From a virus, in the IMG/VR virus record IMGVR_UViG_3300047546_000774, positions 1 to 31,539 of that record: a stretch of DNA of 31,539 nucleotides; one strand, 5' to 3'. How positions within the stretch are numbered: the stretch's first letter is position 1; each line of letters begins with the position of its first letter. The notes under the pieces are model-generated. The model had not been told where the DNA came from. It ran no database searches and saw only the letters and a program-made list of their open reading frames with translations. The translations under genes were made by a program, and so were the position numbers. Positions 4,536 through 15,695 of the stretch are shown here, piece by piece.

Positions 4536-4846
4536 CTCAAGAATCAATATCATGGGGAGAATTAGCAGAACTTACTCATGCCACTCAGGTAGAGAAATTC
4601 AATTTTTGTACTTGTGAGGATAACGAGGGTAAAGAAAATCCCTACGCAGATTGCCCAACTCAAAAACCCTATAACCGCGTAGACGCGATTATCGCTTATG
4701 AATCAGGCGAACTAGATGAAGAGAAAACTATTGAACTTTTCCAGCATTTAGTCAATACTGGTTTGGCTTGGCAATTACAAGGTCATTATGGAAGAACTGC
4801 GAGCGCTCTAATCGAGGCTGGCGTAATTACTAAGGGGGAGAAATGA
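4532..4846 (+). CDS. Conserved-type phage protein, 104 residues
   Basis: A 104-residue protein. Its central part (GELDEEKTIELFQHLVNTGLAWQLQGHYGRTASALIEAG) resembles DUF7417-like small phage proteins in which a LFQxLxxTGLxxxLQGxYGR motif is common; the family name is from memory and less sure than the motif. Cys27 and Cys29 lie in the N-terminal FCTCED stretch. ATGA overlaps at both ends show tight coupling. Function unknown. Confidence 0.75.
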   Translation: MTQESISWGELAELTHATQVEKFNFCTCEDNEGKENPYADCPTQKPYNRVDAIIAYESGELDEEKTIELFQHLVNTGLAWQLQGHYGRTASALIEAGVITKGEK

Positions 4847-5436
4847 CAACTGATACAAAAAATTGGAATAAATCCGTAAAGTGCGTTAGTTGCGAAGATG
4901 TCTTTGAAGATGGCGACCATACCTTCTCGAATGTAAAGGATGGCGTACTCTGCTACGGATGCCAAGAAGATGATTTACAAAGCGCATCAAGTCTCGTACT
5001 GGTTCACGGTGGCGAAATCAATTCATGCCGAATCGGTAACTATGTCATCTATGACGATGATTTAGAGATTCCCGATTTCCTCAAAGATTTATGCGGTGAG
5101 AAAATTGATGTCCGCAAGTGGACTCAAACCGATGGCTGGCGTGGGCATGGCTCGACAATCGAGAACTTCAAGAATGTCAAGGTTATCGCTCAAGGCTGGA
5201 CAAGTGGATGGACTGAGGACCATCCTCGCAAAGCCAAATTCAATCAATTCTTGAACGCGATTGCTGAAGGTGAGTTTTCGACACCGTATCCGTTCTATGT
5301 CTTGACTGAGCAGACATCCAATGTCTTTTCACAAACCATAGATGTCTTTACAACTGAACACTACGAATCTCGAGTCATCGCATGGCTTGAAGAGATTGGA
5401 TACCCGCAATCAACTTTGAAAGAGTGGTTATCATGA
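4843..5436 (+). CDS. Zinc-ribbon-headed hypothetical protein, 197 residues
   Basis: A 197-residue protein. The first ~40 residues form a zinc ribbon (Cys14-xx-Cys17, Cys37-xx-Cys40). The rest is Trp- and Asp-rich (RKWTQTDGWRGHGSTIE, WTSGWTEDHPRKAKF) with no motif that I can name. Here the zinc module is attached to a larger domain, unlike the stand-alone ribbons upstream, so those may share a binding partner with it. Coupled to both neighbours by ATGA overlaps. Function unknown. Confidence 0.75.
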   Translation: MTTDTKNWNKSVKCVSCEDVFEDGDHTFSNVKDGVLCYGCQEDDLQSASSLVLVHGGEINSCRIGNYVIYDDDLEIPDFLKDLCGEKIDVRKWTQTDGWRGHGSTIENFKNVKVIAQGWTSGWTEDHPRKAKFNQFLNAIAEGEFSTPYPFYVLTEQTSNVFSQTIDVFTTEHYESRVIAWLEEIGYPQSTLKEWLS

Positions 5437-5522
5437 GTACGAATCTCTATTGTGGTGAATGTAAGACTGAATTGATTCAAGAGAACTACACGCTCAAATG
5501 TCCAAAGTGCGATTTGAGATAA
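5433..5522 (+). CDS. Zinc-ribbon microprotein, 29 residues
   Basis: A 29-residue protein, Cys7-xx-Cys10 and Cys23-xx-Cys26, essentially nothing but a zinc ribbon. It starts in ATGA overlap with the previous gene. So short an open frame could be chance, but the position, overlap and clean four-Cys pattern argue for a real gene. Function unknown. Confidence 0.65.
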   Translation: MSTNLYCGECKTELIQENYTLKCPKCDLR

Positions 5523-5534
5523 ATTGATAATTAG

Positions 5535-5556
5535 TATAAACTTAGGTTTATATTAG
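5535..5556 (+). promoter_or_regulatory. Diverged operator-promoter of the deacetylase gene
   Basis: TATAAAC-TTAG-GTTTATA (5535-5552) is a perfect palindrome with 7-bp arms, of the same AAC-N4-GTT form as the other operators but with TTAG instead of CCCA in the centre. The -10 box is closer (TATATT 5549-5554 or TATTAG 5551-5556). GAGAGAGGAG and the ATG at 5574 follow. The changed centre and spacing suggest different strength or timing. Confidence 0.65.
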
Positions 5557-5573
5557 GGAGAGAGGAGAAATAT

Positions 5574-6497
5574 ATGGAACACGCAATACTGGTTCATACG
5601 CCTGAATATGCGAATTGGGTCTTTGACAAAACGCATCCAACTCAAGGGCGTAGATTTCTCCATGCTCGAAACAAGTTGATGCTCGAGGCGCAAAAACGCC
5701 GACTCAATGTTTGGGAGATAGAACCCGAGCATTGCTCTACCGATGACCTCCATCTTGTTCATGATATGTCGTATGTATTCGATGTAGTTGTGCGTGGAGA
5801 ATCATCCGAATGGAACGGACAACGCCACGACCTAGGCGACTTAGCCAAGTTGTTTGTGAGCGGTACTTTGACTGCGCTCGATACTTTGATTGACAAGAAA
5901 ACTTTGCTTGCCATCAACTTCGCTGGCGCCAAGCATCATGCGATGCGTGACTACTCAAGCGGATTCTGCGTCTTTGCTGATTTTGCTATCGCCGCAACTA
6001 AGGCGACTAACGAGTACGAACACCGCGTTGCTATCTTTGATTGCGATGCTCACCATGGTGATGGTACCGAAGTTCTACTCAAGTCAAACAAAAATGTTAT
6101 GACTTACTCGGTTCATGAGTACGGAATTTTTCCAGGCACGGGTCTTTTGACTGATTGGAAGAATCGCGCTTACAACTTCCCGCTTGCTTCAGGTTCAGGC
6201 GATGATGCTTTGATGAGCGCAACCGAGGGCTTCCTTGATGCGTGTGATGAATTTCAGCCAACTATGATTTTCGTTGCTTGCGGTGCTGACGGTTTAGCCG
6301 ATGACCCGCTATCCAATCTCAAGTACACGCCCGAGGGTTACTTCAACTCCATGCGAGTTATCCGTGAACAGTTTCCAACTACGCCGATTCTTCTCGGCGG
6401 GGCTGGTGGTTACCTGCCTGATACGGGAACTCCCGAGGTATGGAAGAACGCCGCGCTTGGACTTATGGCGATTCAAACCGAGGTTGTGAAACCCTAG
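5574..6497 (+). CDS. Histone-deacetylase-family zinc amidohydrolase
   Basis: A 307-residue protein covering the whole HDAC/AcuC/acetylpolyamine-amidohydrolase fold, which removes acetyl groups from lysine or acetylated amines using zinc. The active site looks complete: His121-His122 (the general base pair in AKHHAMRDYSSGF), Asp156/Asp158/His160 in IFDCDAHHGDGTE (Asp158 and His160 as zinc ligands), Asp239 in CGADGLADDP as the third ligand, and Tyr280 in GGAGGY as the transition-state tyrosine. The SVHEYGIFPGTG loop and an N-terminal HPTQGRR also fit. No signal peptide, so cytoplasmic. It has its own operator and is followed 16 nt later by a proteasome-like gene. The substrate is unknown: acetylated host protein, polyamine or a modified base are possible. 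An unusual gene for a phage. Confidence 0.93.
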   Translation: MEHAILVHTPEYANWVFDKTHPTQGRRFLHARNKLMLEAQKRRLNVWEIEPEHCSTDDLHLVHDMSYVFDVVVRGESSEWNGQRHDLGDLAKLFVSGTLTALDTLIDKKTLLAINFAGAKHHAMRDYSSGFCVFADFAIAATKATNEYEHRVAIFDCDAHHGDGTEVLLKSNKNVMTYSVHEYGIFPGTGLLTDWKNRAYNFPLASGSGDDALMSATEGFLDACDEFQPTMIFVACGADGLADDPLSNLKYTPEGYFNSMRVIREQFPTTPILLGGAGGYLPDTGTPEVWKNAALGLMAIQTEVVKP

Positions 6498-6513: not shown

Positions 6514-7077
6514 ATGACCACAATCGTAGCCGTCCAGTATCGGGATAAGGTTTTATTCGGTGCTGACTCACAAGTAACGAGCGGGATTGGTCGCGTTGCG
6601 AATCATCCTCAGATGGTGAAGATTTCAAAGCGTGGTGAATTCATAATTGCTGGAAGTGGCGAATGTGCGCCTTGCGATATTGCTCAACATATATGGATGC
6701 CACCAAAACCAAGCAATGCCGAATTGGATGATTTGTACCATTTCATGATTGCTCGCGTTGTTCCATCTCTCAAACAATGTTTCAAAGATAACGAATACAA
6801 GTGGAACGAAGCAGACGATGAGGAAACTAAATTTGCTTTCCTTATCGCTATTGGTGGGATGGTCTTTGAACTCGCCGATGATATGTCTATTGCTCTTGAT
6901 TCAAAAGGATTTTATGGAGTCGGCTCGGGTTCTAGTTATGCGATTGGAGCACTCGCTCAAGGAGCAACGGTTGAAGAGGCTCTCAAGATTGCTTCGAAGT
7001 ATGACGCCTATACATCCGCGCCCTTTATGTACTTAGAACAATCAAAAAAGAAAGTTGCGCCATCCAATAAAAAGTAG
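6514..7077 (+). CDS. Proteasome-beta/HslV-like Ntn hydrolase
   Basis: A 187-residue protein beginning MTTIVAVQYRDKVLFGADSQ, matching the start of HslV and proteasome beta subunits. Removal of Met would expose catalytic Thr1; Asp17 (GAD) is in the normal place, and Lys35 probably corresponds to the usual Lys33 with a two-residue insertion. The C-terminal half has the expected YGVGSGSSYAIGAL turn, a helix (VEEALKIASKYD) and the Asp-x-x-Thr/Ser region (YDAYTSAPF). Members of this fold are compartmented peptidases in HslV or 20S proteasomes, often ATPase-fed. No HslU-like ATPase is visible in the window, so it may self-assemble, use a host ATPase or act on its own. There is no propeptide. Probably co-transcribed with the deacetylase (16-nt gap, weak SD). 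Confidence 0.88.
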   Translation: MTTIVAVQYRDKVLFGADSQVTSGIGRVANHPQMVKISKRGEFIIAGSGECAPCDIAQHIWMPPKPSNAELDDLYHFMIARVVPSLKQCFKDNEYKWNEADDEETKFAFLIAIGGMVFELADDMSIALDSKGFYGVGSGSSYAIGALAQGATVEEALKIASKYDAYTSAPFMYLEQSKKKVAPSNKK

Positions 7078-12669: not shown

Positions 12670-12807
12670 CTAGCAACTCGAACAATAATTCACAGTTCGA
12701 ACATTCTCTTTTCTCATTGTGATAATGCGAGCGCAATGAAAGCACGGAACTTGAACCATCGGACTTTCATCCTCAACTCTTTTGATTTCTAACCCGAGTA
12801 GTTTCAT
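12670..12807 (-). CDS. Zinc-ribbon microprotein, 45 residues
   Basis: A 45-residue protein with Cys22-xx-Cys25 and a C-terminal Cys42-xx-Cys45 (NYCSSC), with a Met/Arg/Lys-rich linker between. It starts in ATGA overlap with the double-ParB gene. Another member of the zinc-ribbon set, here on the - strand in the packaging/modification operon. Function unknown. Confidence 0.68.
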   Translation of the reverse strand: MKLLGLEIKRVEDESPMVQVPCFHCARIITMRKENVRTVNYCSSC

Positions 12808-13994
12808 TCTTTATCCTCCACCGTACAAGATTCAATAGGGATAAATAATAACTCAGCAACATCTTTCCAGCCATAGATTGAATTAGCCCACTCATTCAAA
12901 TCCTCGGTATGAACTCTCATTGAATGTTCGCCCACTCGAATTGTTGTTCGACCAACGGGGATATGCCCAGGCTTGGATTTTCCACCCGAGAGAATCTCTG
13001 AAACTTCTTCAGCGGTAAATCCTGTTCCCTTCAATCCTGTTGAGGTCAAAAGTTTATTGAGTTCCTGCGGGTCATAGGTTGCCAAGTCGCTTGTTCGATT
13101 GTCCACAATCAGAATCTTTATCTCCTCGACATCATCGACATCGACCCAATGAACTGCCACCTTTTCCCATCCCAACTGGACTGCTCCTTGATAGGTATGG
13201 TTTCCCGAAAGAATGTGCTTGGTGCGTTTATTGACCACGATAGGTCGGTACTGACCCATTACCTCTAGGGATGTGATGATTGCTCCTACATCGCCCTCAC
13301 GCGGGTTCAGAGGATGAACTTTGACCTCATTGATTGGAACTGTCTCTATGTCCTCGGGGTTTGAATCAGAACGCTCAAGGTGAGGTTGAGGTTCAACTGG
13401 TTTGCGTTCAGGTAATCCCAATCGGGTTTTGATTGCTTTGATGGCTTTTTGCTTTGTCGGAGCCTCGGTGTATAACTGCTCCTTCCAAGCCTTGTATGCC
13501 TCGAGTTCAACCGTAAACTTCCAAGCGCTAACCTTTACTTCAGGGTCACTAGGTAAAGGCTTAGAATCGCTTATAGGGTCTTTATCCTTGCCAGTCATGA
13601 GCCTATCTAAAGTATCAACCTCAGATTGAGTAAAGCCCGTACCTTCGAGTTCAGGTAGAGCCGTCAAAAGATTTTTCAAAAGTGGTTCGTTGTATGAAGC
13701 GAGGTCGGTCATTCGATTGTCAGCCAAGACAATCTTGCGAGCGCTCTCCTCATCTACATCGACATAGGTGACTTTGATTTTCTTCCAGCCAAGTTTCCTC
13801 GCCGCTTTGTATGTGTGATTCCCCGCGAGGATAAAGTTCGAGCCATACTGAACAACAATCGGTCTGTACTGCCCATGGGCTTTGAGAGATTGAGCAATCG
13901 CTTCAATATCGCCACGACGAGGATTTGTCGGGTACGCCTCAAGGGATGAAATAGGAACTGAAGCAACTTGTCCAACTTTTATCTTCGCTTTCAT
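12804..13994 (-). CDS. Tandem double ParB-like domain protein
   Basis: A 396-residue protein with two ParB/sulfiredoxin-fold domains. The first, residues ~10-105, has YPTNPRRGDIEAIAQSL, HGQYRPIVV, and GNHTYKAARKLGW followed by DNR. The second, residues ~220-325, repeats the pattern (HPLNPREGDVGAI, MGQYRPIVV, GNHTYQGAVQLGW, DNR). The linker is basic and Pro-rich. In ParB proteins this fold binds and hydrolyses CTP; in other phage proteins it occurs as a nuclease-like or modification-linked module. GNHTYxA replaces the usual GxxR box with a GNHT motif. Located directly after the carboxy-SAM-synthase-like gene (ATGA overlap), so it may work with DNA modification. The ATG at 13994 is preferred to a TTG 15 nt upstream. 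Confidence 0.85.
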   Translation of the reverse strand: MKAKIKVGQVASVPISSLEAYPTNPRRGDIEAIAQSLKAHGQYRPIVVQYGSNFILAGNHTYKAARKLGWKKIKVTYVDVDEESARKIVLADNRMTDLASYNEPLLKNLLTALPELEGTGFTQSEVDTLDRLMTGKDKDPISDSKPLPSDPEVKVSAWKFTVELEAYKAWKEQLYTEAPTKQKAIKAIKTRLGLPERKPVEPQPHLERSDSNPEDIETVPINEVKVHPLNPREGDVGAIITSLEVMGQYRPIVVNKRTKHILSGNHTYQGAVQLGWEKVAVHWVDVDDVEEIKILIVDNRTSDLATYDPQELNKLLTSTGLKGTGFTAEEVSEILSGGKSKPGHIPVGRTTIRVGEHSMRVHTEDLNEWANSIYGWKDVAELLFIPIESCTVEDKE

Positions 13995-14638
13995 TTGATA
14001 TACAACCAAGCCTCAAAATTGTAGAACTTCCAAAACATTGTGCCTACTGTGAATCCTGCGTTCTCTGCCAATATCTGATTTCGCATGGATGAGTTCACTT
14101 TCATCATCGGGCGAAGGTCGCGCTCTTTATTGAGTATCTGTTCAGCAGTAAAGGCTTTGCGCTTGAAGTCGTAGTGAGCGCCATGGATAACCTGCTCGAG
14201 TTCGCCTGATTCTTCTCGAACTTTCTCAGCCCATATAAAAGCCCCACCCTCAACTAGAGATTCATAGATAAGGCTCAGAATGTTTGGTCTATCCTCATAC
14301 GGAATGAACTGAAGAGTGAAGAGTGAGAGAATCAAACTGGACTTACCAAAACCATTGAAGGCTCGAAGGTCTTTGCGAACATAAATCGTTTGGTCATGGG
14401 ACTCAGGCAAAAGATTGTCGGCTATATCAATTCCGATTTTCTTACCTCGGTGTGGAAGGCGCTCAAGAAGTTTTCCAGTTGAACAACCTAAGTCAATCAC
14501 CTGAGTATCTTCAGTCATGAAGTATGTACTCAAATCACAAATTGCTTCAGTTAGCGTGTGATAGTTCGGGATTGATTGCGCGATATGCTCATCAAAGTTT
14601 TGAATTGTGTCGAATGAGAATGGTTCAGTAGAACTCAT
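13991..14638 (-). CDS. CmoA-like carboxy-SAM synthase homologue
   Basis: A 215-residue SAM-dependent enzyme fold (DLGCSTG at 49-55) with features specific to CmoA rather than general methyltransferases: FDEHI (15-19) and IPNY (23-26, Tyr26 near CmoA Tyr39), FTLQF (107-111), GGAFIWAEKV, HYDFKR (155-160) and a C-terminal FWKFYNFEAWL. CmoA makes carboxy-SAM from SAM and prephenate. An Arg (Arg173, in KERD) can be aligned with CmoA Arg199, which from memory binds the carboxylate, but this needs a one-residue gap. CmoA is ~247 residues; this one lacks ~8 residues near the N terminus. The ATG at 14638 (AGAAGG ribosome-binding site) gives a 14-nt overlap with the DNA methyltransferase gene; a further upstream start is rejected. 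Probably supplies its modified SAM to that neighbour. Confidence 0.82.
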   Translation of the reverse strand: MSSTEPFSFDTIQNFDEHIAQSIPNYHTLTEAICDLSTYFMTEDTQVIDLGCSTGKLLERLPHRGKKIGIDIADNLLPESHDQTIYVRKDLRAFNGFGKSSLILSLFTLQFIPYEDRPNILSLIYESLVEGGAFIWAEKVREESGELEQVIHGAHYDFKRKAFTAEQILNKERDLRPMMKVNSSMRNQILAENAGFTVGTMFWKFYNFEAWLYIK

Positions 14639-15695
14639 GAAGCCTTCTACCAATCGCTTCCACGACTGGGATAGTGATGGTTCTCCCGCACCGCTCGTAT
14701 CTTTCGGAATCTGAAACTCGTCGTCCATCATCGTAAAACTCCGTCCATCCATCAGGTAAACCTTGAAGGCGTTCACACTCCAAGGGTGTTAGTTTTCTCA
14801 AAGCAAAACCTTCATCGTCGCCTGTAAGAACTCCGTGTCGGTCTTGCGCTGTAATTGTGTACATCGGGTCTCCATCATCTTTGATGAGTCGTCCGTTTGG
14901 TTTCTTGTTTACTCGGGCAACATCTAAAACTGGTCTCACGAAGGGAACATTGTTACCGCCAGTTCCCATGTGAGCGAGAAGTGTTGGAGCGACATTCTCA
15001 AAAGTTCTAAAACTGTTTTCGCGTCGAATGAACTGCTCGACTACATATTGTCGGGAGTTTCCTCCTTTGTAGTAGTGGGCGTCAAGGGTCGGAGAAATGT
15101 GGGAGAAAAACCCCTGCCTTCCTTCTCGTTCTTTCGAGTTCGACTGAGCATTGCTTCCACTTGTTGCTCCGATAGGAAATACTTTTGGTCGGGGTTTTCC
15201 TCTAAGATGTCCGATAAGGAATACCCTTTCTCGGTGTTGCGGGACTCCGAAATTTTGGCTGTCAAGCAATTCCCATTGACAGTCATACCCCAAGCCATCC
15301 AAGACTTCGAGGATGATTTCGAAGGTTCTTCCTCCGTCGTGGTTGAGGAGTCCTTTGACATTCTCAAAGAGGATATACGGTATTGATTTTTCGTGAGCGA
15401 GTCTAAACATTTCAAAAGCGAGTGTCCCTCGGGTGTCATCCAAAGAGAATCCAGTTCGCTTTCCCGCAACTGAAAAAGTCGCACAAGGGAATCCTCCAAC
15501 GAGGAGGTCGGCATCAGGAATGTCTCCAGCGGAAACATCTCTAATATCTCTTCCGTCAGGTTGTTCTCCGAAATTTCGGGCATAAATTTTCCTCGGTCTC
15601 TCTAGCCATTCGTTAGCCCAAACGCACTCATGACCTGTTCTTTCAAGTCCAAGTCGAAAGGCTCCAATTCCAGCAAAAAGTTCAATGAACTTCAT
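14625..15695 (-). CDS. DNA cytosine-C5 methyltransferase, candidate carboxymethyltransferase
   Basis: A 356-residue Dcm-type enzyme with all the standard motifs: I (ELFAGIGAFRLGLE), IV with catalytic Cys71 (GGFPCATFSVAG), VI (ENVKG, 111-115), VIII (QHRERVFLIG), a target-recognition region (~170-300) and IX (LECERLQGLPDGWT). Motif X differs from nearly all relatives: YERCGRTITIPVVEAIGRRL has Arg338 where GNS/GNA has Asn. In M.MpeI, from memory, replacing this Asn by a basic residue allows carboxy-SAM use. Motif IV also has PCA where PCQ is usual. The gene overlaps that of a CmoA-like carboxy-SAM synthase, so I infer transfer of carboxymethyl rather than methyl to cytosine. An ordinary methyltransferase remains possible. 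No cognate restriction enzyme is seen. Confidence 0.9.
   Translation of the reverse strand: MKFIELFAGIGAFRLGLERTGHECVWANEWLERPRKIYARNFGEQPDGRDIRDVSAGDIPDADLLVGGFPCATFSVAGKRTGFSLDDTRGTLAFEMFRLAHEKSIPYILFENVKGLLNHDGGRTFEIILEVLDGLGYDCQWELLDSQNFGVPQHRERVFLIGHLRGKPRPKVFPIGATSGSNAQSNSKEREGRQGFFSHISPTLDAHYYKGGNSRQYVVEQFIRRENSFRTFENVAPTLLAHMGTGGNNVPFVRPVLDVARVNKKPNGRLIKDDGDPMYTITAQDRHGVLTGDDEGFALRKLTPLECERLQGLPDGWTEFYDDGRRVSDSERYERCGRTITIPVVEAIGRRLHEFY

Follow-up and report, generated by a model that had tools for sequence, protein, structure and literature searches.

A gene for a predicted zinc deacylase of the histone deacetylase (HDAC) family lies at positions 5574–6497 of the window analysed here, an entire virus record of 31.5 kb. 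Its product belongs to a subfamily that the tree and signature residues set apart from those of AcuC, acetylpolyamine amidohydrolase and HdaH, and that freshwater Actinobacteria have in common with a widespread lineage of their phages. Members carry a lysine immediately ahead of the catalytic histidine pair, and we call them the KHH clade. That the phage protein is an active zinc deacylase appears highly probable; the best overall explanation – that it holds a host (or phage) target deacylated during infection – has, in our judgement, about an even chance of being correct.

Phage enzymes of the HDAC family have hardly been described. This is evident from the lack of a match in PHROGs and from the viral structure library, in which the only HDAC folds recovered with the phage protein at E ≤ 0.001 belong to giant viruses. 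Giant-virus HDACs (Hyperionvirus, Catovirus, Yasminevirus, CeV) have the fold in common with the phage protein at 13–22% identity, and are proteins of eukaryote viruses. No model in PHROGs v4, NCBIfam or PADLOC matched the phage protein, and a literature search restricted to open-licence papers turned up no account of an HDAC-family enzyme from a phage. That an actinophage should have an HDAC-like gene is in itself not unprecedented, because gp202 of Rhodococcus phage E3 is already annotated as a "putative histone deacetylase protein". New here are the coherent KHH clade, the apparent core status of the gene in a common freshwater phage lineage, the lysine signature and the link to a phosphatase.

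An intact gene with a complete active site

The reading frame is intact, beginning with ATG and running for 307 codons over exactly 5574–6497 of the plus strand; GAGAGGAG (5560–5567, plus strand), read from the sequence 6 nt ahead of the ATG, is a likely ribosome-binding site. Against the Pfam Hist_deacetyl profile (PF00850) the predicted protein scores 188.3 bits (E = 2.5e-55; curated cut-off 27.9), and the match, over profile positions 2–294 of 298, takes in the complete domain. Searching the PDB by sequence gave HDAC6, HDAC2 and HDAC8 as best matches (E down to ~1e-34), and an AlphaFold2 model built with 18 phage sequences (pLDDT 84.7, pTM 0.89) returned only HDAC8 structures as top hits in Foldseek (TMq up to 0.82), as expected of an arginase/deacetylase fold. 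Confidence in the model is low at residues 123–128, which adjoin the active-site histidine pair. The earlier note, made from the letters alone, had called this a complete HDAC-family enzyme, and these data bear that out. It had also placed the catalytic and zinc-binding residues at His121-His122, Asp158, His160, Asp239 and Tyr280, and each is found precisely there, together with Asp156 and Asp163. By the chemistry of the family, H121 and H122 would activate water, D158, H160 and D239 would hold the Zn2+ ion of this arginase/HDAC-fold amidohydrolase, and Y280 would stabilise the intermediate.

Comparison with the class-I-like enzymes HDAC8 and HDAC2 shows the same fold, zinc ligands and catalytic residues (TM 0.82 to HDAC8) at only 24–27% sequence identity. 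Where those enzymes have GG[LW]HH and GGGGY, the phage protein has GAKHH (followed by A) and GAGGY; it nevertheless carries the class-I-like CGAD motif. The description of the protein as of normal length holds for the domain, which is complete, but the protein is a compact member of the family, and its alignment with HDAC2 shows a gap in the region of the L2 loop.

The gene closes a same-strand run, and the following gene starts 16 bp past its stop codon. A promoter of its own, as once proposed, finds no support: the scan yielded two promoter-like matches upstream, fewer than in shuffled sequence (mean 4.4), and the one at 5514–5542 is weak (9 of 12 positions). We thus reject it. Upstream on the same strand lies a gene of unassigned function (4843–5436, plus strand) that recurs as a neighbour in 20 loci. 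Most of the gap between it and the HDAC gene is occupied by a 29-aa reading frame (5433–5522) that begins shortly before the upstream stop codon and contains two CxxC pairs, resembling a zinc ribbon.

A separate clade marked by a lysine

The earlier note had asked for a position in an HDAC-family tree, and the position obtained is a separate clade. In our careful tree the phage sequences form a single group (support 100/99) within a KHH clade that comprises phages, chromosomal genes of freshwater Actinobacteria and Microbacterium phage Magritte, and which is set apart from AcuC-type and class-II-like sequences with support of 100/100. The Magritte protein (gp204, "hypothetical protein") is 37% identical to ours and bears the KHH signature; Magritte is a 133-kb phage, and the neighbours of gp204 differ from those in the window phage. 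The E3 protein, although likewise from an actinophage, is very divergent, has leucine before the histidine pair and sits on a long branch; its membership of the clade is not supported.

The closest cellular genes are chromosomal and come from freshwater Actinobacteria, including Candidatus Planktophila (41–54% identity); identities in the rest of the phylum reach ~30–40% at best. Two orders have chromosomal KHH genes (12 of 296 and 17 of 166 genomes, respectively), and one copy resides on a contig of 1.095 Mb. From these closest relatives we infer that the host is a freshwater Actinobacterium. A quick tree had nested the phage gene among host genes, as though it had passed from host to phage; we discarded this reading, for the careful tree does not fix the branch order inside the clade and is compatible with transfer in either direction between cells and phages.

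Lysine at position 120 (GAKHH) is present in 19 of 19 phage sequences, in all 26 chromosomal sequences and in Magritte. Not one of 48 further actinobacterial HDACs has it; nearly all of these have glycine or leucine there, as AcuC-type and class-II-like enzymes do. Residues 117–122 of the phage protein read A-G-A-K-H-H, with proline or alanine at position 117 among relatives, and further positions specific to the clade are W15, T23-Q24-G25-R26 and A277.

A recent survey of bacterial deacylases (Graf et al. 2024, PMC11532494) offers a frame for these differences. There, an RPPXHH or GGGXHH segment together with an XGGY motif shapes the foot pocket and sets acyl preference: RPPXHH marks robust deacetylases, XGGLHH marks AcuC, and an aromatic X marks long-chain deacylases. 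GAKHH combined with AGGY, as read from the sequence, matches none of these motif classes. In the HDAC11-like long-chain deacylases (cluster 5b) the X of GGGXHH is tyrosine or phenylalanine, whereas in the phage protein it is Lys120, following A/P-G-A. By analogy K120 would line the foot pocket on which acyl preference depends, and its charge points to an uncommon acyl group or else to a charged substrate. Among classical bacterial deacylases assayed to date, none takes off succinyl or glutaryl (PMC11532494).

The same motifs bear on whether the enzyme could act as an AcuC would, removing acetyl groups from the acetyl-CoA synthetase of the host, or from further enzymes of central metabolism, and so providing more acetyl-CoA during infection. 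AcuC-family proteins (cluster 2) have a (G/A)GGY motif and lack RPP (PMC11532494); the phage protein likewise has A277-G-G-Y280 and no RPP, and CGAD agrees with such an affinity. However, the leucine of XGGLHH is replaced by lysine in all KHH members, phage and chromosomal alike, the phage protein stands apart from AcuC-type sequences with full tree support, and neither acs nor acuA was recognised in the part of the neighbours that was scanned. We consider such a takeover of central metabolism quite unlikely. Acetyl-CoA synthetase and polyamines had been named beforehand as known substrates of bacterial members; nothing ties the phage protein to the former, and both the LHH motif of AcuC and the RPPGHH motif of the polyamine enzymes are absent.

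A near-core gene of a freshwater phage lineage

At least 226 relatives of the phage protein are present in IMG/VR according to a two-motif profile scan (a first scan gave at least 100). Across 81 phage loci, H121, H122, D156, D158, H160, D163, D239 and Y280 are unchanged in every one, and the median pairwise dN/dS of 0.112 (46 unsaturated pairs) indicates that the gene is under strong purifying selection. A ratio of ~0.11 and an invariant active site reject gene decay; the invariant site, purifying selection and correct fold together give good support to the view that this HDAC-family protein works as a zinc deacylase.

The large terminase of the window phage (10403–12004, minus strand) provided a lineage marker independent of the HDAC gene itself: contigs were picked by terminase match and then checked for the gene (n = 40). 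Twenty carry it. Nineteen of the 20 that do not, by a reading of coordinates, end before the expected position of the gene; the other, L339, is a short contig that is borderline as to whether this position is reached. All 20 contigs found to reach the position thus carry the gene, L339 being the borderline case, and since those lacking it stop short of its place, the gene is apparently close to core in this lineage.

The gene is not confined to a single arrangement. In four loci (L075, L077, L079 and L081) it lies in another context and has no HslV-like neighbour; two of these, L075 and L081, group within the phage clade of the careful tree, which suggests that the gene has been exchanged between phages.

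The usual gene after the HDAC gene encodes an HslV/proteasome-like Ntn-hydrolase (6514–7077, plus strand; phrog_1040). An obligate operon of the two was entertained and rejected, the HslV-like gene being kept without an HDAC gene in related phages. In these HDAC-free relatives it adjoins tail, portal or endolysin/lysis genes, and for this reason it may be a protease with a structural or lysis-linked role, not the deacylase's partner.

Chromosomal neighbourhoods and the role of the enzyme

Clues to the pathway come from the chromosomal relatives. Within 3 kb of the HDAC gene, 12 of 30 chromosomal loci have a gene for a dual-specificity-phosphatase-like (DSP-like) protein with a CX5R motif (PF00782), and in one freshwater actinobacterial genome the HDAC and DSP-like domains are joined in a single protein of 486 aa (L277:5287–6747). 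Because of this proximity and this fusion, deacylase and phosphatase are probably parts of one circuit in cells, with a regulatory or processing function, the phage having the deacylase alone. Genes for VWA-domain proteins are near the HDAC gene in 11 of the 30 loci, sigma-like genes in six, NrtR-type NUDIX genes in five and ARPP-1 genes in four; four of the five loci with NUDIX genes (L242, L265, L271, L274 and L275) also have ARPP-1. None of these neighbour families (DSP, VWA, sigma-like, NUDIX, ARPP-1) occurs around the HDAC gene in the phage loci examined. A phage-encoded DSP partner was sought and set aside, none being found among 19 phage records in a search that had no positive control in phages. 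The phosphatase being the best cellular clue, its absence from these records means that the role of the phage copy may differ from the chromosomal one.

Polyamine and amine genes provide a different clue. A deacetylase of acetylpolyamines or other acetylated amines could feed polyamines to DNA packaging or shift polyamine pools, and some chromosomal relatives do lie near fitting genes: a PotABC-like ABC transporter (L238), a primary-amine oxidase with an amino-acid permease (L244, L269), and an omega-aminotransferase with an aldehyde dehydrogenase (L240). By raw count, such contexts are nonetheless few among the 30 diverse chromosomal loci. The ApaH/AphA acetylpolyamine amidohydrolases (cluster 4; PMC11532494), which have the superfamily and catalytic residues in common with the phage protein, are distinguished by RPPGHH and an extended L2 loop that confers polyamine specificity, whereas the phage protein has neither, its L2 region being short. 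With amine genes at few loci and the ApaH motifs missing we do not adopt this as the main reading and regard it as fairly unlikely. The L240 gene pair had been considered for putrescine catabolism, a role dropped when NCBIfam placed the dehydrogenase with methylmalonate-semialdehyde dehydrogenase.

Certain chromosomal relatives lie beside genes for NERD, Schlafen-group-3 helicase, MoxR and VWA proteins, as is seen in conflict islands, and the phage gene is a conserved one amid small non-structural genes. Both observations would suit an enzyme that undoes the effect of a toxin or defence acting through acetylation, a GNAT toxin for instance, or one directed against an acylated signalling molecule. 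Yet no PADLOC model matches the HDAC protein or its close associates, there is no resemblance to known anti-defence families, and our search found no paper reporting such an HDAC. We take counter-defence to be improbable. Among the roles offered in the earlier note, alteration of host acylation or deacylation of a metabolite survives as the best general statement, while its acetylation-based counter-defence lacks a PADLOC match; there is no specific support for counter-defence, AcsA activation or polyamine deacetylation.

The explanation that we favour – a target held deacylated – can be set out as follows. In cells, gene order and fusion join the HDAC to a DSP-like protein, often near a VWA gene, and the two would be functionally coupled. 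During infection the phage copy would keep its target deacylated, be it a regulator or metabolite of the host that belongs to this pathway or something acylated by the phage, and host acylation would be unable to reverse the state so imposed. We put the chance that the target lies in the pathway of the chromosomal relatives at slightly less than even. A bolder version takes the KHH clade for a class of classical zinc deacylases with a new kind of substrate, K120 being the binding residue for an acidic acyl group, such as succinyl, malonyl or glutaryl, or for an anionic or phosphorylated substrate. The chromosomal enzyme and its phosphatase, fused or adjacent, would catalyse successive steps, and phages would use the deacylase alone to rewrite the modification. 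This we think unlikely. The L277 fusion is a concrete handle on the pathway, and a near-core HDAC in abundant freshwater phages makes the question of whether phages erase host acylation directly testable.

Acetyltransferase-like proteins of the head module

A target acylated by the phage itself brings into consideration GNAT-like domains. Among HDAC-bearing contigs of 53 kb or more, 13 of 18 have a hit to such a domain, as against neither of two HDAC-free 59-kb relatives. Virion proteins with such domains might acetylate the host on entry, the deacylase resetting this later. The hits examined are mostly head-module proteins with a KHGDHDQSSHGSW repeat, two of which adjoin a Mu-F-like gene. However, most scores are below the Pfam cut-off (five exceed it, one of these in an unrelated ATPase-GNAT protein), the phages are related so that the 13/18 versus 0/2 contrast is not one of independent observations, and the head module is beyond the reach of the window. 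We judge a reset of the phage's own acetylation very improbable, and these proteins as a phage-side partner of the HDAC are a lead only.

The repeat proteins with GNAT-like domains are found in L394 (1126–2385), L395 (163–1911), L396 (1099–2949), L397 (166–2187), L399, L400 and L401; those of L394 and L395 are the ones beside the Mu-F-like gene. They may be delivered with the virion. One also has an ADP-ribosyltransferase exoenzyme domain (PF03496).

Other genes of the window

The phage setting assumed from the outset is confirmed by genes for terminase, tape measure, tail proteins, a CHAP lysin and ERF in the window, which also encodes a cytosine methyltransferase and ParB-like proteins. This gene set, together with the 52–53% identity of the large terminase to those of Arthrobacter phages, makes an actinobacterial host likely.

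A long protein rich in Pro, Ser, Thr and Glu repeats, with a conserved C-terminus, is encoded at 401–1414 and has relatives of up to ~690 aa. At 1837–2403 on the minus strand is an HEXXH metallohydrolase gene that recurs at 47 loci of these phages and has TIGR04338 (Rv0185) as a related family. A CmoA-like methyltransferase gene (13991–14776) adjoins one for a double ParB_N protein (12804–14009); in the relative G807 (L398) the neighbouring position is taken by an ATPase-GNAT fusion, an arrangement that recalls DNA-modification cassettes.
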